Below the pieces are notes generated by a model, which was not told the origin of the DNA, did not search any database, and saw only the letters and a list, made by a program, of their open reading frames with translations. Shown piece by piece: positions 55,727-64,000 of a stretch of 64,000 bases of DNA. This DNA comes from Anaeromyxobacter diazotrophicus (GTDB lineage Bacteria > Myxococcota > Myxococcia > Myxococcales > Anaeromyxobacteraceae): positions 62,001-126,000 of the forward strand of contig NZ_BJTG01000006.1 in assembly GCF_013340205.1 (NCBI RefSeq), in the 5' to 3' direction. Every line of letters begins with the position of its first letter. The first letter of the stretch is position 1. The translations under genes and the position numbers were made by a program.

Positions 55727-57364
55727 TTGGGCAGCTACGACGTCATCGTCCTCGGGGGCGGAGTGAACGGGACGGGCACCGCGCGCGACCTCGCGCAGCG
55801 CGGCCTTTCGGTGCTGCTCCTGGAGAAGGCCGACCTCGCCTGCGGGGCGAGCGGCGCCAACTCCGGGATGATCCACGGCGGCATCCGCTACATGCTGTCC
55901 GACCGGCACGTCACGGCGCTCGCGGCCCGCGACTCCGGGTACATCCAGCGCATCGCGCCGCACCTGCTCTTCCGCATCCCGTTCCTCATGCCGTTCACCT
56001 CGCGGAGGGAGCAGGCGACGCTCGTCGAGCGCGCCACCTGGTACGCCACCGAGGTCTACGTCGGGACGTACGACCAGTACCAGCCGCTCAAGCGCGGCAA
56101 GCCCTCGACCCGGCTCTCCGCCGACGAGCTCTACCGGCTCGAGCCCGCGCTCAGGCCCGGGCTCTCCGGCGCGGTCACCTTCGACGAGTGGGGCATCGAC
56201 GCGCACCGGCTCTGCGTGCTGAACGCGCTCTCGGCCCGCGCCCACGGCGCCGAGCTGCGCACCTGGACCGAGGCGCGCGACCTGCTGCGGGAGGGCGGGC
56301 GCGTCGCCGGCGTCCGGTTCCGCGACGCGCTCACCGGGGAGACGGGCGAGGCGCGCGCGCCGGTCGTCTTCAACGCCACCGGCGCCTGGTCGCCGCGGCT
56401 GGCTCGCCGCAACGGGCTCGCGGTGCCCATGCGGCCGGGGAAGGGCGTCCACCTCACGCTCGACCGGCGCTTTTCGAACTACGGCATCACCTGCACCGCC
56501 GTGGACGGCCGGCAGATGTTCCTCATGCCGCACGAGAACGACTCCATCGTCGGCACCACGGACGACGACTACTACGGCGACCCGGACGACCTGGAGGCGA
56601 CGCAGGACGAGGTGGAGTACCTCCTCGAGGGCGTCGAGGCGCTCTTGCCCGGGGTGCGGCGGGCGCGGGTGACGCGGGCGTGGTGGGGGCTGCGGACGAC
56701 CCTCCACGAGTACGGCAAGAACGAGGACGCCCTCTCGCGCGAGCACGCCATCCTCGACCACGCCGCCGAGGGCGCCGACGGGCTCCTCTCGATCGTGGGC
56801 GGCAAGCTCGCGAGCTACCGGGCCCAGTCGCAGGAGGTGGCGGACCTCGTGGTCCGGCGGCTGGGGCGCGCCGCCCGGCCCTGCCGCACGCACGAGGAGC
56901 CGCTCCCCGGGGGCGAGGCCGCGGCGGACGTCGAGGCGCTCGCGGCGGCCCACGGGGTGGCGGCGCCGCTGGTGGCGCGGCTCGTCTACCGGCACGGCGC
57001 CCTGGCGGAGGAGGTGCTGCGGCTGGTGGACGACGACCCGCGCCTCGGGCTCGTGCTGTGCCGGGACGAGGGCCTCACGGCGGCCGAGGTCGTGTACTGC
57101 TGCCGGCACGAGCAGGTGCGCCGGCTCCAGGACCTGCGGCGCCGCTGTCGGCTCGCGGTCGGCGCCTGCGGCGGCCTCGACTGCGCCCGCACCGCGGCGC
57201 AGGTGGCGGGCCGCGAGCTGGGCTGGAGCGCGGAGCAGGTCCGGGCCGAGCTGGCGGACCTGCTCGAGCTGGGCTGGCGCGAGCGGCGCGCGGTGCTCGA
57301 CGGCCACCAGCTGGCGCAGGAGGAGCTCCTGCGCGGTGCCCACACCGGCGTGGGGCGGCTGTGA
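55727..57364 (+). CDS. glpA: Anaerobic-type glycerol-3-phosphate dehydrogenase subunit A
   Basis: A 545-residue FAD enzyme that oxidises glycerol 3-phosphate to dihydroxyacetone phosphate. The FAD motif is VIVLGGGVNGTGTARDLAQR (6-25), followed by GASGANSGMIHGGIRYML, the DAO-fold motif GAWSPRLARRNGLAV and HENDSIVGTTDDDYYGDP. The C-terminal region (about 385-500) contains cysteines VVYCCRHEQVRR and ACGGLDCART of the type bound to a cluster in GlpA proteins. The start is TTG. Its stop overlaps the GTG of glpB, as in known glpAB operons; glpC is missing. Confidence 0.9.
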   Translation: MGSYDVIVLGGGVNGTGTARDLAQRGLSVLLLEKADLACGASGANSGMIHGGIRYMLSDRHVTALAARDSGYIQRIAPHLLFRIPFLMPFTSRREQATLVERATWYATEVYVGTYDQYQPLKRGKPSTRLSADELYRLEPALRPGLSGAVTFDEWGIDAHRLCVLNALSARAHGAELRTWTEARDLLREGGRVAGVRFRDALTGETGEARAPVVFNATGAWSPRLARRNGLAVPMRPGKGVHLTLDRRFSNYGITCTAVDGRQMFLMPHENDSIVGTTDDDYYGDPDDLEATQDEVEYLLEGVEALLPGVRRARVTRAWWGLRTTLHEYGKNEDALSREHAILDHAAEGADGLLSIVGGKLASYRAQSQEVADLVVRRLGRAARPCRTHEEPLPGGEAAADVEALAAAHGVAAPLVARLVYRHGALAEEVLRLVDDDPRLGLVLCRDEGLTAAEVVYCCRHEQVRRLQDLRRRCRLAVGACGGLDCARTAAQVAGRELGWSAEQVRAELADLLELGWRERRAVLDGHQLAQEELLRGAHTGVGRL

Positions 57365-58743
57365 CGGTCCGCCGGCCCGCGCGTCAGCCCCTGTCGACCT
57401 TCCCCCTCTCTCCCCGGGGAGAGGGCCGGGGAGAGGGGGCCGCCCCCCTCGTCACCGACGTCCTCGTCGTCGGCGGAGGTCTGGCCGGCGCCATGGCCGC
57501 CCTCGCCGCCCGCAGCCGCTCCGCTCGCGTGGTGCTGGCCCGGCGCGCCCCCGGCGCCACCGCGCTCTCCTCCGGCGCCATCGGCGCCGCCCCCGACACC
57601 TGGTGCGCGCCGGCGGAGCCGCTCGCCTCCCGGCTCGACACCCTGACCGCGGCCCGCCGGCTCGCGGCGAGCCGCCCCGAGCACCCGTACGCGGCGCTCG
57701 GCCCCGGCCTCGACGCGCTGGAGGAGGCGCTCGCCTTCGCCGCCGCGGAGCTCGCGGACTTGCTCGCCCCGCCCTCGGGCCGCCCGCTCTTCCTCTCCAC
57801 GCCCTACGGCGCGGTCGTCACCGCCGCGCTGGCGCAGCGGACCATGGTCGCCGCCGACCTCGCGGCGGTGCGCGGGACGCTGGCGGTGGTCGGCTTCCGG
57901 GGGCACCTCGGGTTCGACGCGCGGCTGGTGGCGGGCGCGCTCGCGCCGTGGGAGGCGCGGGGCGGGCCGCGGACGACCGCCGTGGAGCTCGACCTCTTCA
58001 TGAGGGGAGACCTGGCGCTGGCGCGCCCCCACGAGCTGGCCCGGGCCCTGGAGGCGCCAGGCGCCGCCGAGGAGGCCGGCAGGCTCCTCGGCCGGGCGCT
58101 GCCGGCGGGCGCCGCCGCCGCGGTGTTCCCGCCCGTGCTCGGGCGCGCTCCCGCCGCGCGCGTCATGGAGCGCATCGCCGGGGCCGCCGGCCTGCCCGTG
58201 GCCGAGACCCTCTCCGACGTGCCGAGCGTGCCCGGCCTGCGGCTGCAGGCGGCGCTCGAGGCGCGGCTCCTCGCCGCCGGGGTGGAGCTGGTGTCGGGCG
58301 AGGTGGCCGTCGAGCGCGGCGGGCGCCCCGGCGACGAGGTCCGCGCCGGCGGCCGCGAGGTGCGGGCGCGCAGCTGGGTGCTCGCCAGCGGGCGGTTCGT
58401 CGGCGGGGGGATCGTCCGCCGCGGCGCGCTGGTGGAGCCGCTCCTCGGCCTCCCGGTGCAGGCCACCGAGGCCGGCGCCCCGGACGGCGAGCTCGCGAGC
58501 CGCCCCGCGGCCTCGCTCACCGTCCGCGCCCGGCGCGCCGCGCAGCCGCTCCTCGCCGCCGGCGTGCGCATCGACCGCCAGCTCCGGCCGCTCGACGCCT
58601 CGGGGGCCCCGCTCCACCCGCGGCTCTTCGCCGCCGGGGCGGTGATCGGCGGCCACGAGGTGGCGGCCGACGGGACGGGGCTCGGGGTCGGGGTGCTCAC
58701 GGGCTATCTCGCCGGGAGCGCGGCGGCAGGCGCACCCGGGTAG
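57361..58743 (+). CDS. glpB: Glycerol-3-phosphate dehydrogenase subunit B
   Basis: A 460-residue FAD/NAD-binding protein of the GlpB family, the second subunit of anaerobic glycerol-3-phosphate dehydrogenase. The nucleotide motif VLVVGGGLAGAMAALAAR begins at about residue 35, later than usual. The first 30 residues are encoded partly by a palindromic DNA element (57401-57440), and no other start codon lies between it and the motif, so the repeat appears to be translated. The C-terminal end HPRLFAAGAVIGGHEVAADG fits the family. GlpC, which normally anchors GlpAB to the membrane, is not encoded next to it. Confidence 0.82.
   Translation: MTVRRPARQPLSTFPLSPRGEGRGEGAAPLVTDVLVVGGGLAGAMAALAARSRSARVVLARRAPGATALSSGAIGAAPDTWCAPAEPLASRLDTLTAARRLAASRPEHPYAALGPGLDALEEALAFAAAELADLLAPPSGRPLFLSTPYGAVVTAALAQRTMVAADLAAVRGTLAVVGFRGHLGFDARLVAGALAPWEARGGPRTTAVELDLFMRGDLALARPHELARALEAPGAAEEAGRLLGRALPAGAAAAVFPPVLGRAPAARVMERIAGAAGLPVAETLSDVPSVPGLRLQAALEARLLAAGVELVSGEVAVERGGRPGDEVRAGGREVRARSWVLASGRFVGGGIVRRGALVEPLLGLPVQATEAGAPDGELASRPAASLTVRARRAAQPLLAAGVRIDRQLRPLDASGAPLHPRLFAAGAVIGGHEVAADGTGLGVGVLTGYLAGSAAAGAPG
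57401..57440 (+). repeat. Palindromic element inside the glpB coding start
   Basis: The stretch contains the perfect palindrome CTCTCCCCGGGGAGAG, flanked by CCC/GGG runs, and then a second GGGGAGAGGGGG copy of the right arm. Elements of the form CCCTCTCC...GGAGAGGG are common dispersed repeats between genes in GC-rich bacteria, but this one lies within a reading frame. The frame stays open through it. Confidence 0.6.
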
Positions 58744-58845
58744 ACGCTCCGGCCCGAGGCCGACCCGACGCAGTCAGGCCGCTGGCGACCGCCAATTTTC
58801 TGGCGATCCTTCGAGAAACGCCCAGCGAAATCGCCGACGTCAAGC

Positions 58846-58861
58846 TGGCGCGCGCATTGCT
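58846..58861 (+). promoter_or_regulatory. Sigma-54 (-24/-12) promoter
   Basis: TGGCGCGCGCATTGCT matches the sigma-54 pattern TGGCACG-N4-TTGCW with one difference in the -24 block. GG (58847-58848) and GC (58859-58860) have the required spacing of 12 from GG to GC. The preceding base is C, as preferred. It lies 44 bases before the ATG of the methyltransferase gene, so transcription of the 58905-63650 set probably needs RpoN and an enhancer-binding activator. Confidence 0.6.
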
Positions 58862-58904
58862 ATGCCTCCGAGGGTCGGAAGTGACCTCCGCCCGAGGAAG
58901 TGGA

Positions 58905-60074
58905 ATGAACGACACCAGTCCCGCCCAGCTGCCGGCCTATTACTGCCTCCCACGTCCGGAGCTCACGCAGCTCGTCGCGGCCCGAGGCCTGCGCATCCTC
59001 GAGGTCGGCTGCGCCGCCGGCGCGATGGGCGCAGCCTTGCTGGAGAAGGGAGCCGCCGAGGTGGTGGGGCTCGACATCTTCGAGCCGGCGCTCGCGCTCG
59101 CGCGCACCCGGCTCTCCGCGGCCCACCGGGTCGACCTCAACGGCCTCCCGGAGCTGCCCTATCCCGACGGCCACTTCGACCTCATGACGTTCGCCGACGT
59201 CCTCGAGCACCTCGTCAATCCCGCGGCCGTCCTGCGCCACCTCAGCCGCTGGTTGAGCCGCGACGGGAAGCTGCTCCTGTCCTTGCCGAACATCCGCCAC
59301 GAGTCGGTCGTCCTCCCGCTGCTGGTCGAGGGGCAGTGGGAGTACGCGGACTCCGGGATCCTCGATCGGACGCACCTCCGCTTCTTCACGCGGAAGGGCA
59401 TGCTCCGGATGCTCGACGAGGCGGGCTTCGAGGGGGTCGGGAAGATCGCCGGCTCGCAGACGGCAACCCCCGTCTACGTCCAGAAGGCGGCCGAGCTGGT
59501 CAAGGCGCTCGGCGGCGATGCGGCGAAGTTCATCGAGGAGTGCAACGTCGTCCAGTTCATCACCTTCGCCGCGCGCAAGGGGGCGGAGGCGCGCGACGGC
59601 GACCGGGCGCCCCAGGTCGCCGCGCCGGCGTCGGCCCCGGTGGCCCCGGCGCCAGGAGCCGATCCCTGGGCCGGCTCGAGGGCGCAGCGGGTGCTCCTGG
59701 CGCCCGACGTCGGGTCGCCCGAGGACCGCTGGGCCGCGGTGCTGCCGAGGCTCGCCGAGCAGCTGAGCGGCAAGGCCGCCGTGACGCTCGGCCTCGCCCT
59801 GCCGCTGGAGCACGTCCAGAAGCCTCCCCAGCCCGTCCAGGCGCTGCCGTCCACGCTCGACCTCGATCTGCTGCTGACCGAGCAGCCGAGCTCGCTCGCC
59901 GGCTGGGAGACCCTGCTGCGGGGCGCGGGCGTCCTGGTGCTCACCGGGGCCCGCCCCGAGATCGCGGATCTCGCCACGCGCATGGGCGTCGTGATTCACG
60001 ACGCCGCCGCCGATCCGAAGCTTTGCCCCGCCCCGGTCGCGCCGAGCGCCGAGGCGGCGCGCTTCCCTGCCTAG
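58905..60074 (+). CDS. SAM-dependent methyltransferase with unknown C-terminal domain
   Basis: A 389-residue protein. Residues 1-215 are a class I methyltransferase: SAM motif ILEVGCAAGAMGAALLEKG (about 24-42), acidic motif VVGLDIFE, the DLMTFADVLEHLVNP motif, and SLPNIRHESVVLPLL, of the type found in polysaccharide and O-antigen clusters. After a Pro/Ala linker (about 228-255), residues 260-380 form a separate domain (AQRVLLAPDVGSPEDRWAAV and LLTEQPSSLAGWETLLRGAG) that I cannot assign, possibly a Rossmann-like glycosyltransferase part. It is the first gene after the sigma-54 promoter, with wbsX 13 bases behind. Confidence 0.8.
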   Translation: MNDTSPAQLPAYYCLPRPELTQLVAARGLRILEVGCAAGAMGAALLEKGAAEVVGLDIFEPALALARTRLSAAHRVDLNGLPELPYPDGHFDLMTFADVLEHLVNPAAVLRHLSRWLSRDGKLLLSLPNIRHESVVLPLLVEGQWEYADSGILDRTHLRFFTRKGMLRMLDEAGFEGVGKIAGSQTATPVYVQKAAELVKALGGDAAKFIEECNVVQFITFAARKGAEARDGDRAPQVAAPASAPVAPAPGADPWAGSRAQRVLLAPDVGSPEDRWAAVLPRLAEQLSGKAAVTLGLALPLEHVQKPPQPVQALPSTLDLDLLLTEQPSSLAGWETLLRGAGVLVLTGARPEIADLATRMGVVIHDAAADPKLCPAPVAPSAEAARFPA

Positions 60075-60087
60075 CCCCGAGGACGCC

Positions 60088-61743
60088 GTGACCGACCGCC
60101 CCACCGCTTCGTCCGCCGGCGCGCCCGTCCGCGCCATCGCTTACTACCTGCCCCAGTTCCACCCCATCCCCGAGAACGACGCCTGGTGGGGCCGCGGCTT
60201 CACGGAGTGGACGAGCGTCACGCGCGCCAAGCCGCTCTTCGAGGGGCACTATCAGCCGCACCTCCCGACCGAGCTCGGCTTCTACGACCTGCGCCTGCCG
60301 GAGGTTCGCGCCGCGCAGGCCGAGCTGGCGCGCGAGCACGGGATTCACGGCTTTTGCTATTACTATTACTCCTTCGGGACGAAGCGCCTGCTGGAGCGCC
60401 CGCTCCTCGACATGCTCGAGAGCGGGAACCCCGACTTCCCGTTCTGCATCTGCTGGGCGAACGAGAGCTGGTCGCGCCGGTGGGACGGCAGCGAGGCCCA
60501 GGTCCTCATCGCCCAGGATGATTCGCCGGAGCGCTATCGGCAGTTCATCCACGAGGTGCTCCCCATCCTGAAGGACCGCCGGTACATCCAGGTCGGCGGC
60601 GCGCCCATGCTGCTCGTCTACCGGGTGGGCAGGATGCCGGACGCCGCGGCCGTCGCCGCCTACTGGCGAGAGCAGGCCGAGGCCGCCGGGCTGCCGGGGC
60701 TGTACCTCTGCGCCGTCCAGAGCCACGACGCGACGTTCGATCCGCGCCGGGCGGGCTTCGACGCGGCCGTCGAGTTCCCGCCCTCCCCCTGGCACGGAAG
60801 GAAGATCGATCCCAGGACGCTCCCAGGCCTCGATCCGGACTTCACCGGCACCGTCTTCGACTACGAGGACTTCGTGACCCACAGCCTCGCGCGGAGCGCG
60901 CCGGACTACCGCCTGCTCCGGGGCGTCATGATGGGGTGGGACAACACGGCGCGGCGCGGGCCCGCCTCGTTCCTCTTCCATGGCGCGACGCCGCGCGGAT
61001 ACGAGGCGTGGCTCCGGGGGGCGGTGGCCTGGACGGCGGCGCACAACCCTCCCGACGAGCGCGTCGTGTTCCTGAACGCGTGGAACGAGTGGGCGGAGGG
61101 AACGCACCTCGAGCCGGACGAGCGTCACGGCCGGGCCTGGCTCGAGGCGACGCAGCGGGCGCTCTCGCGCGCGGAGGCCTGGCGCGGGGCGCTGGAGGCG
61201 CTCCGCCGCGAGGGCACGATCCCCCCGGAGGTGCTGCGGGCCCACGTGGAGGATCTGCAGCACGCGCTGGAGCGGCTCGAGCGCGTCGAGAGCGTGAGCA
61301 CCGCCTCTCGGGGCTCGTTCACGGAGGGCGTGGCCCCCGCGTTCGCCAGCAAGCCCCTTCACCTCGGCGGGCTCACGCAGCTGGAGTTCGTGCAGGGCCG
61401 CCCGCCCGGCGGGCGGATCAAGCTCCGGGACCGTGAGCCGCTGAAGGTCTCCGGATGGGCGGTCGCCCCCGGGCTCGACCTGCGCGGCGCGCCGGCCTTC
61501 CTGGTCCTGCGGTCGCCCACCGGGGAGCGCATCTACAGCGCCCCGCTCGGCGAGCGGACGGTCCGCCACGACGTGGCGTTCCAGCTCCGCCAGCTCGATC
61601 CGCGCTCGGTCTGCCTGGCCGGGTTCGACGTCGAGCTCGCCACCGACGCGCTCGCCCCCGGCGAGTACAAGCTCGGCGTCGTGCACGCCAGCGACAAGGC
61701 CGCCGTGGCGGGGTTCTCCGAGCACCGGATCTCCGTCGAATGA
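60088..61743 (+). CDS. WbsX-like glycan biosynthesis protein
   Basis: A 551-residue protein whose first 350 residues match the WbsX family (glycosyl hydrolase 99-like fold): AIAYYLPQFHPIPENDAWWG, GFTEWTSVTRAKPLF, HGIHGFCYYYYSFG and FLNAWNEWAEGTHLEPD. WbsX proteins occur in O-antigen and capsule loci and are thought to act as glycosyltransferases. Residues 420-551 are a separate beta-rich domain (REPLKVSGWAVAPGLDL) whose role I do not know. The start is GTG. The stop overlaps the ATG of the next gene by four bases, so translation is coupled. Confidence 0.82.
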   Translation: MTDRPTASSAGAPVRAIAYYLPQFHPIPENDAWWGRGFTEWTSVTRAKPLFEGHYQPHLPTELGFYDLRLPEVRAAQAELAREHGIHGFCYYYYSFGTKRLLERPLLDMLESGNPDFPFCICWANESWSRRWDGSEAQVLIAQDDSPERYRQFIHEVLPILKDRRYIQVGGAPMLLVYRVGRMPDAAAVAAYWREQAEAAGLPGLYLCAVQSHDATFDPRRAGFDAAVEFPPSPWHGRKIDPRTLPGLDPDFTGTVFDYEDFVTHSLARSAPDYRLLRGVMMGWDNTARRGPASFLFHGATPRGYEAWLRGAVAWTAAHNPPDERVVFLNAWNEWAEGTHLEPDERHGRAWLEATQRALSRAEAWRGALEALRREGTIPPEVLRAHVEDLQHALERLERVESVSTASRGSFTEGVAPAFASKPLHLGGLTQLEFVQGRPPGGRIKLRDREPLKVSGWAVAPGLDLRGAPAFLVLRSPTGERIYSAPLGERTVRHDVAFQLRQLDPRSVCLAGFDVELATDALAPGEYKLGVVHASDKAAVAGFSEHRISVE

Positions 61744-63650
61744 GCCACCCGACCGGAGGCGAGGTCGCCTGGCGCCCCGACCCGCTCGACGTGTCCATCG
61801 ACATCGTCGGGGCGTGCAACCTGGCGTGCCCGGCGTGCGGTCACGGAAACTCCCCGGGTGCGAATCGGTCGATGGGGGCGATGGGGCTCGAGCTGTTCGA
61901 GCGGATCCTGGACAAGGTGGAGCGCGAGGCGGCCCCCGCGCGACCGCGGATCCACCTCTTCAACTGGGGCGAGCCCTTGCTGCACCCGCAGGCTCCCGAG
62001 TTCATCCGGCGCGTGAAGGCGCGCGGGCTCTGCTGCCGGCTCTCGTCCAACCTCGTCCGGCCGAGGGACCTGCGCGGTGTCGTCGCCGCGCGCCCAGACT
62101 GGCTGAGGGTCTCGGTGTCCGGCTTCACGCAGCCGGTCTATGGCCAGACCCATCGCGGCGGCGACGTCGAGCGCGTGAAGGAGAACATGCGCCTCCTCCG
62201 GTCGTACATGGACGAGCTCGGCGCCCCGATCGCGGTGGAGGTGAACTACCACGTGTACCGGCACAACTGCGGGCCGGAGTACACGGCGATGCAGGCGTTC
62301 GCCCGCGAGCTGGGGTTCCACTTCGAGCCGATCTGGTCGGTCGCGGGATCGGCGGACAAGGTGCTCGCCTGGCTCGAGCACGGCGTTCCGGAGTCCGACC
62401 GCCCGCACGTCGAGCGCCTGGTGCACCGGCCCGAGGAATCGCGCGACATCTCCAACCGGTACCGTCACTTGCTCTCCCCCGGTGAGTGCGCGTTGCGCAA
62501 CTCCGTGCTGATCAACTCGGACGGGAGCGTCGACCTCTGCTGCGCAGTGTACGACGTGCCGCCCGTGGCGGAGAGCTTCCTCGAGACGACGGCCGAGGAC
62601 CTCCAGGCCGCGAAGCGCCGGGCGCCCATCTGCGAGCGGTGCATGGAGCAGGGGCTGCACCTCACTTACCTGTACGCCGGCAAGGCGGAGCGCGATGCGC
62701 GAGGGCTGGCCATTCTGGCCGCGGAGCAAGTCGCCGGGACCCACGCCAGCGTCGTGACACGGGAGGAAACGATGAGCACTACGCTTCCAGTCGAGCGTCG
62801 CCAGGATTCGGTCGAAGCCGCGCGGGGCGGGGCGAAGGCCACCGAGGCGGACGAGCTCCTCCCCGCCGGGGCCGGCGTCGAGCGTACGGCGCGGTCGGTC
62901 GCGGGCGGGCTCACGGCAGTCAGGGCTCGTTACCTCGATCTCATGAAGCGCTGCATCCTCAACCTGATCTACGAGGACGACGACATGCTCCGGAAGCAGT
63001 CGTTCTCCGCGGCGATGCGCCGCGACGGCCAGGACTGGCCGGCTGTCGCCCACTCCATGATCGGCCAGCGGAGGATGGACAACGTGCAGGCCTGCGTCGA
63101 GGACGTGATCCGGCGGGGCGTGCCAGGCGACCTCATCGAGACCGGGGTCTGGCGGGGCGGGACCACCATCCTCATGCGCTCCATCCTGGAGGCCTACGGC
63201 GTCTCGGATCGGCGCGTGTGGGTCGCCGATTCGTTCGCGGGGCTCCCCGAGCCGGACGCGGAGAAGTACCCGCACGACGCGGGCGACACGTTCCACACCT
63301 ATCCAGAGCTCGCGATCTCGGTGGAGAAGGTCCAGGAGAACTTCGCTCGCTACGGGCTGCTGGACGATCAGGTCCGATTCCTCGAGGGCTGGTTCAAGGA
63401 CACGCTGCCCACGGCGCCCATCGAGCGCATCGCGGTCGCCCGGCTGGACGGCGACATGTACGAGTCCACGATGGACGCGCTCCAGGCCCTCTACCCGAAG
63501 CTCTCGATCGGCGGGTACCTCATCGTCGACGACTACGGCGCGGTGCCCGGCTGCAAGGAGGCGGTGGACGGGTATCGCCGAGCGCACGCCATCACCGAGC
63601 CGATCGAGCGGGCGGACTGGACGGGGGTCTACTGGCGGCGCGAGCGCTGA
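61740..63650 (+). CDS. Radical SAM/SPASM - TylF methyltransferase fusion
   Basis: One open frame of 636 residues joins two enzymes. Residues 1-344 are a radical SAM protein with cluster cysteines in CNLACPAC (26, 30, 33) and a SPASM-type C-terminal cysteine set (GECALRNSV, DLCCAVYD and ICERCMEQG). Residues 345-636 are a TylF/macrocin-type O-methyltransferase (DLIETGVWRGGTTILMRSIL, VWVADSFAGLPEPD, VARLDGDMYESTMDALQALY and LIVDDYGAVPGC). At the junction an ATG (62772) follows a strong GGGAGGAAACG ribosome-binding site, so the second part may also be made alone. The pair suggests modification of a sugar or peptide. Confidence 0.8.
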   Translation: MSHPTGGEVAWRPDPLDVSIDIVGACNLACPACGHGNSPGANRSMGAMGLELFERILDKVEREAAPARPRIHLFNWGEPLLHPQAPEFIRRVKARGLCCRLSSNLVRPRDLRGVVAARPDWLRVSVSGFTQPVYGQTHRGGDVERVKENMRLLRSYMDELGAPIAVEVNYHVYRHNCGPEYTAMQAFARELGFHFEPIWSVAGSADKVLAWLEHGVPESDRPHVERLVHRPEESRDISNRYRHLLSPGECALRNSVLINSDGSVDLCCAVYDVPPVAESFLETTAEDLQAAKRRAPICERCMEQGLHLTYLYAGKAERDARGLAILAAEQVAGTHASVVTREETMSTTLPVERRQDSVEAARGGAKATEADELLPAGAGVERTARSVAGGLTAVRARYLDLMKRCILNLIYEDDDMLRKQSFSAAMRRDGQDWPAVAHSMIGQRRMDNVQACVEDVIRRGVPGDLIETGVWRGGTTILMRSILEAYGVSDRRVWVADSFAGLPEPDAEKYPHDAGDTFHTYPELAISVEKVQENFARYGLLDDQVRFLEGWFKDTLPTAPIERIAVARLDGDMYESTMDALQALYPKLSIGGYLIVDDYGAVPGCKEAVDGYRRAHAITEPIERADWTGVYWRRER

Positions 63651-63683
63651 CAGGTCGCGTGCGCCCTCTGCTATCGTGAGCCG

Positions 63684-64000
63684 GTGTCAGCCTCCCGCCC
63701 GCGCGCCCTCTCCTACCTCGCCTACCGCGCGCTGCTCGCTCACCCGCTGAAGCGCCTGCGCCAGCGGGGCACCGGGCTCGACCGGTTCCTCGCGAACTAC
63801 GCGGGCGAGGGCCTGGTCCCGACGCACCCGGACGACCGCGCCGTCGGGGAGGCGGCCAGCGCCTGCGTCGGGTGCGGGCTGTGCGAGGCCGGGTGCGAGC
63901 TCGCCACCGCGGTGCCGTCGATCCGCTCGCTCGGGCTCCACGCCGCCTTCCGGCTCTACGGGAAGAGCAGCGCCGAGCTCCCGCACGCGGCCGAGGCGCT
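63684..64000 (+). CDS. 4Fe-4S domain protein (partial, cut by window end)
   Basis: The first 105 codons of a protein that runs off the window. After a basic start (ALSYLAYRALLAHPLKRLRQ) comes one cluster motif CVGCGLCEAGCEL (about 60-72), which has glutamate where ferredoxins usually have proline. I cannot name the family. It begins 33 bases after the radical SAM-TylF gene on the same strand. The start is GTG with GAG seven to nine bases upstream. Confidence 0.6.
   Translation, partial: MSASRPRALSYLAYRALLAHPLKRLRQRGTGLDRFLANYAGEGLVPTHPDDRAVGEAASACVGCGLCEAGCELATAVPSIRSLGLHAAFRLYGKSSAELPHAAEA

Follow-up and report, generated by a model that had tools for sequence, protein, structure and literature searches.

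In-frame union of a radical SAM gene and a TylF-type methyltransferase gene in a putative glycan operon of Anaeromyxobacter diazotrophicus

Within the 64,000 nucleotides of Anaeromyxobacter diazotrophicus DNA that were analysed (the window), a radical SAM gene and a TylF O-methyltransferase gene are joined in one reading frame. This appears to be a real and so far unique in-frame union of two adjacent glycan-operon genes in which the downstream start was retained. ORF calling gave a single frame of 636 codons (636 amino acids) without a stop, and in the protein Pfam placed Radical_SAM on residues 23-157 (E = 2e-11) and TylF on residues 414-634 (E = 1.5e-107), which confirmed the in-frame joining claimed in the original prediction. 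The explanation that we consider probable is an operon for glycan decoration in which the two final genes became fused while the internal start stayed in place. The features of the locus are listed in Table 1.

Table 1. Features of the fusion locus, with coordinates in the window
Feature	Position	Strand	Basis or remark
GlpB-like FAD protein, left island border, conserved flank	57361..58743	+	Pfam, synteny
MT23-X, class I methyltransferase (Methyltransf_23) with C-terminal X region, first gene of the block	58905..60074	+	Pfam; G189 and G155 orthologs carry TylF in frame
WbsX-family gene (PF14307), second gene of the block	60088..61743	+	Pfam; kept upstream of the radical SAM gene in G002
Fused gene, radical SAM + TylF O-methyltransferase	61740..63650	+	ORF, Pfam
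Radical SAM half	61740..62735	+	CX3CX2C, five C-terminal cysteines, homology to free-standing ortholog
Junction, with out-of-frame TGA (62755-62757) and GGAGG (about 62762-62766)	62736..62771	+	Coding potential low in all frames
TylF half, 292 aa counted from the internal ATG	62772..63650	+	Pfam, PDB sequence matches, conserved residues, model
4Fe-4S ferredoxin-type gene, right island border	63684..64000	+	Truncated where the window stops; full length in the genome is 148 aa

From about residue 394 (62919) onwards the fusion carries the conserved TylF domain, which matched the profile of TylF O-methyltransferases (PF05711) with 359 bits against a cut-off of 23. The TylF half aligned with MycF, NovP and SpnH at E < 1e-82, and D570, D572, D597 and D598 of the DGD and VDDY motifs, which by motif correspond to the residues that serve NovP and MycF as metal ligands and base, occurred in 90% or more of the rows of the alignment. 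A structure model of this half, with pLDDT above 90 over most of its length, matched 2wk1 and 4x7z with a TM-score of 0.92-0.96 of the target. The half is thus predicted to be an intact sugar O-methyltransferase of the TylF/MycF type: like TylF, MycF, NovP and SpnH it has the whole catalytic domain with the metal-site DGD and VDDY, at about 50% identity to the solved members. Those solved enzymes are single-domain proteins that act on antibiotic sugars, whereas the window domain forms the C-terminus of a radical SAM protein in a glycan operon.

The radical SAM half matched the superfamily profile PF04055 with 44.8 bits against a cut-off of 29.5. The cluster motif C26-x3-C30-x2-C33 (CNLACPAC) and the further cysteines C250, C267, C268, C298 and C301 were invariant among the two to three radical SAM relatives compared, and these five C-terminal cysteines suggest an auxiliary cluster of the SPASM or twitch kind. 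The Pfam SPASM model gave no match in the window protein, and PF13186 matched only a distant relative (in locus L094), below the cut-off. The half was not assigned to a known radical SAM subfamily, all NCBIfam matches being far below their curated cut-offs; the maturase of tungsten cofactor oxidoreductases (TIGR04317) was rejected at 45.6 bits against 380. Sequence matches in the PDB were weak, the best (2.5e-4) being to a GDGT/macrocyclic archaeol synthase. Given that only two relatives were available to build on, the structure model of this half was poor; pLDDT was below 50 at residues 218-379 of the fusion.

The two halves had been proposed to be formerly separate genes, and comparison with relatives agrees with this. 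When 195 genomes of the phylum were searched with the radical SAM half at a cut-off of E <=1e-15, only G000 and G002 matched, and the sole close relative lies in G002 (same record as L031), which belongs to another genus of the same family. This relative is 63% identical to the window protein, shares its cysteine pattern and its WbsX and MT23-X partners, and stands in the gene order MT23-X, WbsX, radical SAM, GT2. Unlike the window protein it stops at 339 aa as a separate gene (L125:8107-9126), has a GT2 gene next to it and comes from a genome in which no TylF was found. The window radical SAM part measures 344 aa up to the internal methionine; its homology with the G002 ortholog stops at about residue 329-332 of the fusion, and the end of the G002 protein corresponds to window residues 331-344, that is, at the internal ATG. 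In G001, the other genome of the genus, neither half had a significant match.

A search for the same fusion elsewhere found no second case of a radical SAM domain and TylF in a single frame, either in 79 TylF loci of other species (with flanks up to 6 kb) or in the 195 phylum genomes, and the fusion is therefore known from a single genome. A clear relative of the window radical SAM protein occurred near TylF in just one of the 79 loci, L094, where it is 32% identical and lies two genes away. That locus is a Wzm/Wzt polysaccharide cluster in which TylF, MT23 and radical SAM genes stand side by side, the same kinds of enzyme as in the window, with the difference that each has a gene of its own, the order being TylF, MT23, radical SAM. 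Based on the neighbours, which are WbsX and MT23-X in the window and in G002 and Wzm, Wzt, methyltransferases and an acyltransferase in L094, the radical SAM protein can be tied to glycans. The literature search returned nothing on the pair of radical SAM and TylF (both words co-occurred only in a reference list) and nothing on WbsX with radical SAM.

The junction also looks like a place where two genes once met: at 62745-62790 the fused frame has a coding score below zero, with a return to higher values to the left and right of this stretch. Together with the free-standing ortholog in G002 and the lack of a radical SAM domain on TylF in the 79 loci, this dip argues for separate ancestral genes. 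The linker between the halves, of about 50 residues and predicted to be disordered, contains the in-frame ATG at 62772 (residue 345), which is preceded by CGGGAGGAAACG with GGAGG at a spacing of about 5 nt. The original prediction rated this ribosome-binding site as excellent. The in-frame ATG and the good site were both found; the site is not rare, however. With the test set as a match of at least 5 bases to the anti-SD complement at proper distance, 25/311 internal in-frame ATGs in the 52 called genes of the window had such a match, as compared with 17/52 called gene starts, giving a likelihood ratio of about 4 for a start over an internal ATG, and a second internal ATG of the fused gene (residue 150) also has such a match. 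Alone, the ribosome-binding site is therefore a modest argument, yet it is placed exactly at the domain boundary. The region around this ATG folds weakly (-13.8 kcal/mol, z = +1.3), no better than shuffled sequences. It is plausible that both the fusion protein and a free methyltransferase are made from the locus.

The TGA in the +1 frame was nearly where it had been placed, at 14 instead of 15 bases ahead of the ATG. It aligns with the stop of the G002 radical SAM gene and was tried as a displaced ancestral stop, but the alignment was not significant when compared with shuffles and random segments (p = 0.09-0.27), and such an origin is only suggestive. Since p was in this range, we do not choose between a substitution and an indel as the cause of the stop loss.

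One could instead ascribe the fusion to an assembly or base-calling error, an indel or a stop near 62700-62760, with the true genes being separate and translationally coupled. In general, errors or recent indels often underlie changed-frame singletons (PMC3711429), which calls for caution with a fusion seen in a single genome, and the TGA so close to a well-formed ribosome-binding site and ATG would fit an error, as would the fact that the +1 frame would stop the radical SAM protein at a length (338 aa) near that of the G002 protein (339 aa). Against this, homopolymers of 4 or more are absent from 62690-62800, no obvious frame-broken pairs were seen among the 52 genes called over the 64 kb (coding fraction of the window, 95%), the assembly of 17 contigs has scores of 100% for completeness and 0.07% for contamination, and the TGA aligns with the G002 stop no better than by chance. 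A sequence error is not favoured, and we rate it as improbable.

If the fusion is real, it might have been selected as a bifunctional enzyme in which the tethered TylF directly methylates the product of the radical SAM half, by channelling or through a fixed stoichiometry. Both sets of catalytic motifs are intact, the linker is long and predicted to be disordered, TylF is repeatedly joined to other glycan enzymes, and radical SAM and TylF genes co-occur in L094. However, no second fused example was present among the loci and genomes searched, the linker is conserved with nothing, and G002 has the radical SAM and WbsX genes without any TylF. Selection for such an enzyme is accordingly rated as unlikely, and so is the fuller scheme, which we hold with low confidence, of a sugar that is modified by the radical half and whose product is O-methylated by the tethered TylF, with free TylF added from the internal start. 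If true, it would be a new way to do two consecutive glycan modifications.

Fusions of TylF to other partners were found in single frames. TylF is the C-terminal domain after Methyltransf_23 and an X region in G189 and G155, and other domains that precede it are Methyltransf_23 with GT2, GT2 alone, WbsX, sulfotransferase and TPR (L123:8157-9968, L124:8283-10121, L040, L041, L045, L055, L058, L079, L097 and L102). The window protein fits this class, with a C-terminal TylF after another enzyme domain in one frame, and the joining of TylF to other glycan enzymes elsewhere indicates that fusions of this sort are tolerated. The combination of radical SAM and TylF appears to be a new pairing for a domain that, in the relatives examined, is already joined to many enzymes, and it adds the radical SAM enzyme to the list of partners.

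Two of the TylF domains closest to that of the window, in G189 (70% identity) and G155 (60%), are each fused to an ortholog of MT23-X. These proteins of Myxococcota (L123/G189 and L124/G155) are C-terminal fusions like the window protein, and their MT23-X parts are orthologous (40-46% identical) to the first protein of the window operon; their partner is a class I methyltransferase, whereas that of the window is a radical SAM protein. This raises the idea of domain relocation, in which TylF would have left an ancestral MT23-X-TylF protein and joined the radical SAM gene inside the same operon. The window TylF pairs with the G189 TylF in the tree with support of 90/85, and the MT23-X gene of the window is located 2 kb upstream. 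This support is non-decisive, being below the starred level, the MT23-X-TylF proteins of G189 and G155 do not cluster with each other, and G002 has the same MT23-X without TylF. A relic of the MT23-X C-terminus was looked for in the N-terminal extension of the window TylF and rejected, the alignment scores being at chance (p = 0.10-0.58). Given that no X-region remnant was found, relocation within the operon remains speculation and is considered very unlikely. The C-terminal region of MT23-X itself (59500-60074, about 190 aa) has no Pfam match and is conserved in G002, G189 and G155.

The surroundings of the fused gene suggest a variable site. Directly adjacent glpB and ferredoxin-type genes, with their matches 5-28 bases apart, were found in seven members of the family (G005, G006, G009, G010, G011, G013 and G015), whereas in the window a 4.9-kb block of MT23-X, WbsX and radical SAM-TylF is placed between them (58743-63684). 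The corresponding block is inverted in G002, the gap holds a 17-kb set of sugar and glycan genes in G003, and in G004 it holds one gene, of the family that adjoins the MT23-X-TylF genes of G189 and G155. From the compared loci (window 58743-63684, L125, L141, L142 and L143), the glpB-ferredoxin junction appears to be an insertion hotspot for glycan cargo in this family. The G+C content of the block is 0.69-0.73 and that of the flanks 0.75-0.82, a difference that would be expected for acquired DNA. Within the block, the ATG of the fused gene overlaps the stop of the WbsX gene by 4 bases (ATGA).

The fusion of the last two operon genes, which we favour, could have come about as follows, the order of events being our reconstruction. 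A small, horizontally variable operon between glpB and the ferredoxin gene would encode MT23-X, a WbsX-like enzyme, a SPASM/twitch-like radical SAM enzyme and a TylF-type sugar O-methyltransferase. In this lineage the TylF gene would have taken the position just downstream of the radical SAM gene, where G002 has a GT2 gene, and the radical SAM stop would then have been lost or shifted out of frame within the last dozen codons. Translation from 61740 through both domains would give a 636-aa protein with two intact enzymes and a flexible linker, and the old TylF start (GGAGG and the ATG at 62772) is probably still in use, giving some free methyltransferase of 32 kDa. The TylF domain would O-methylate a glycan, and the radical SAM half may act on the same glycan or on its precursor. 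A fusion that is real and in use would hint that the glycan of TylF is also acted on by this radical SAM family, which would give a concrete substrate class for a radical enzyme. The locus would also be a case of operon fusion with the downstream start still present.

Two further observations were made in the comparison loci. The L094 region (L094:297-9020) is a Wzm/Wzt export cluster with a rhamnosyl O-methyltransferase, TylF, Methyltransf_23, the distant radical SAM relative and an acyltransferase. Next to the MT23-X-TylF genes (L123:9974-10840 and L124:10118-10966) lies a protein family, about 290 aa long (MxFxVIIVxPxxYxHxxAFxExAET...), that has no Pfam match; it occurs also at the hotspot of G004 (L142:1435-2340), and sequence similar to it is fused to TylF in L045, L056 and L066.
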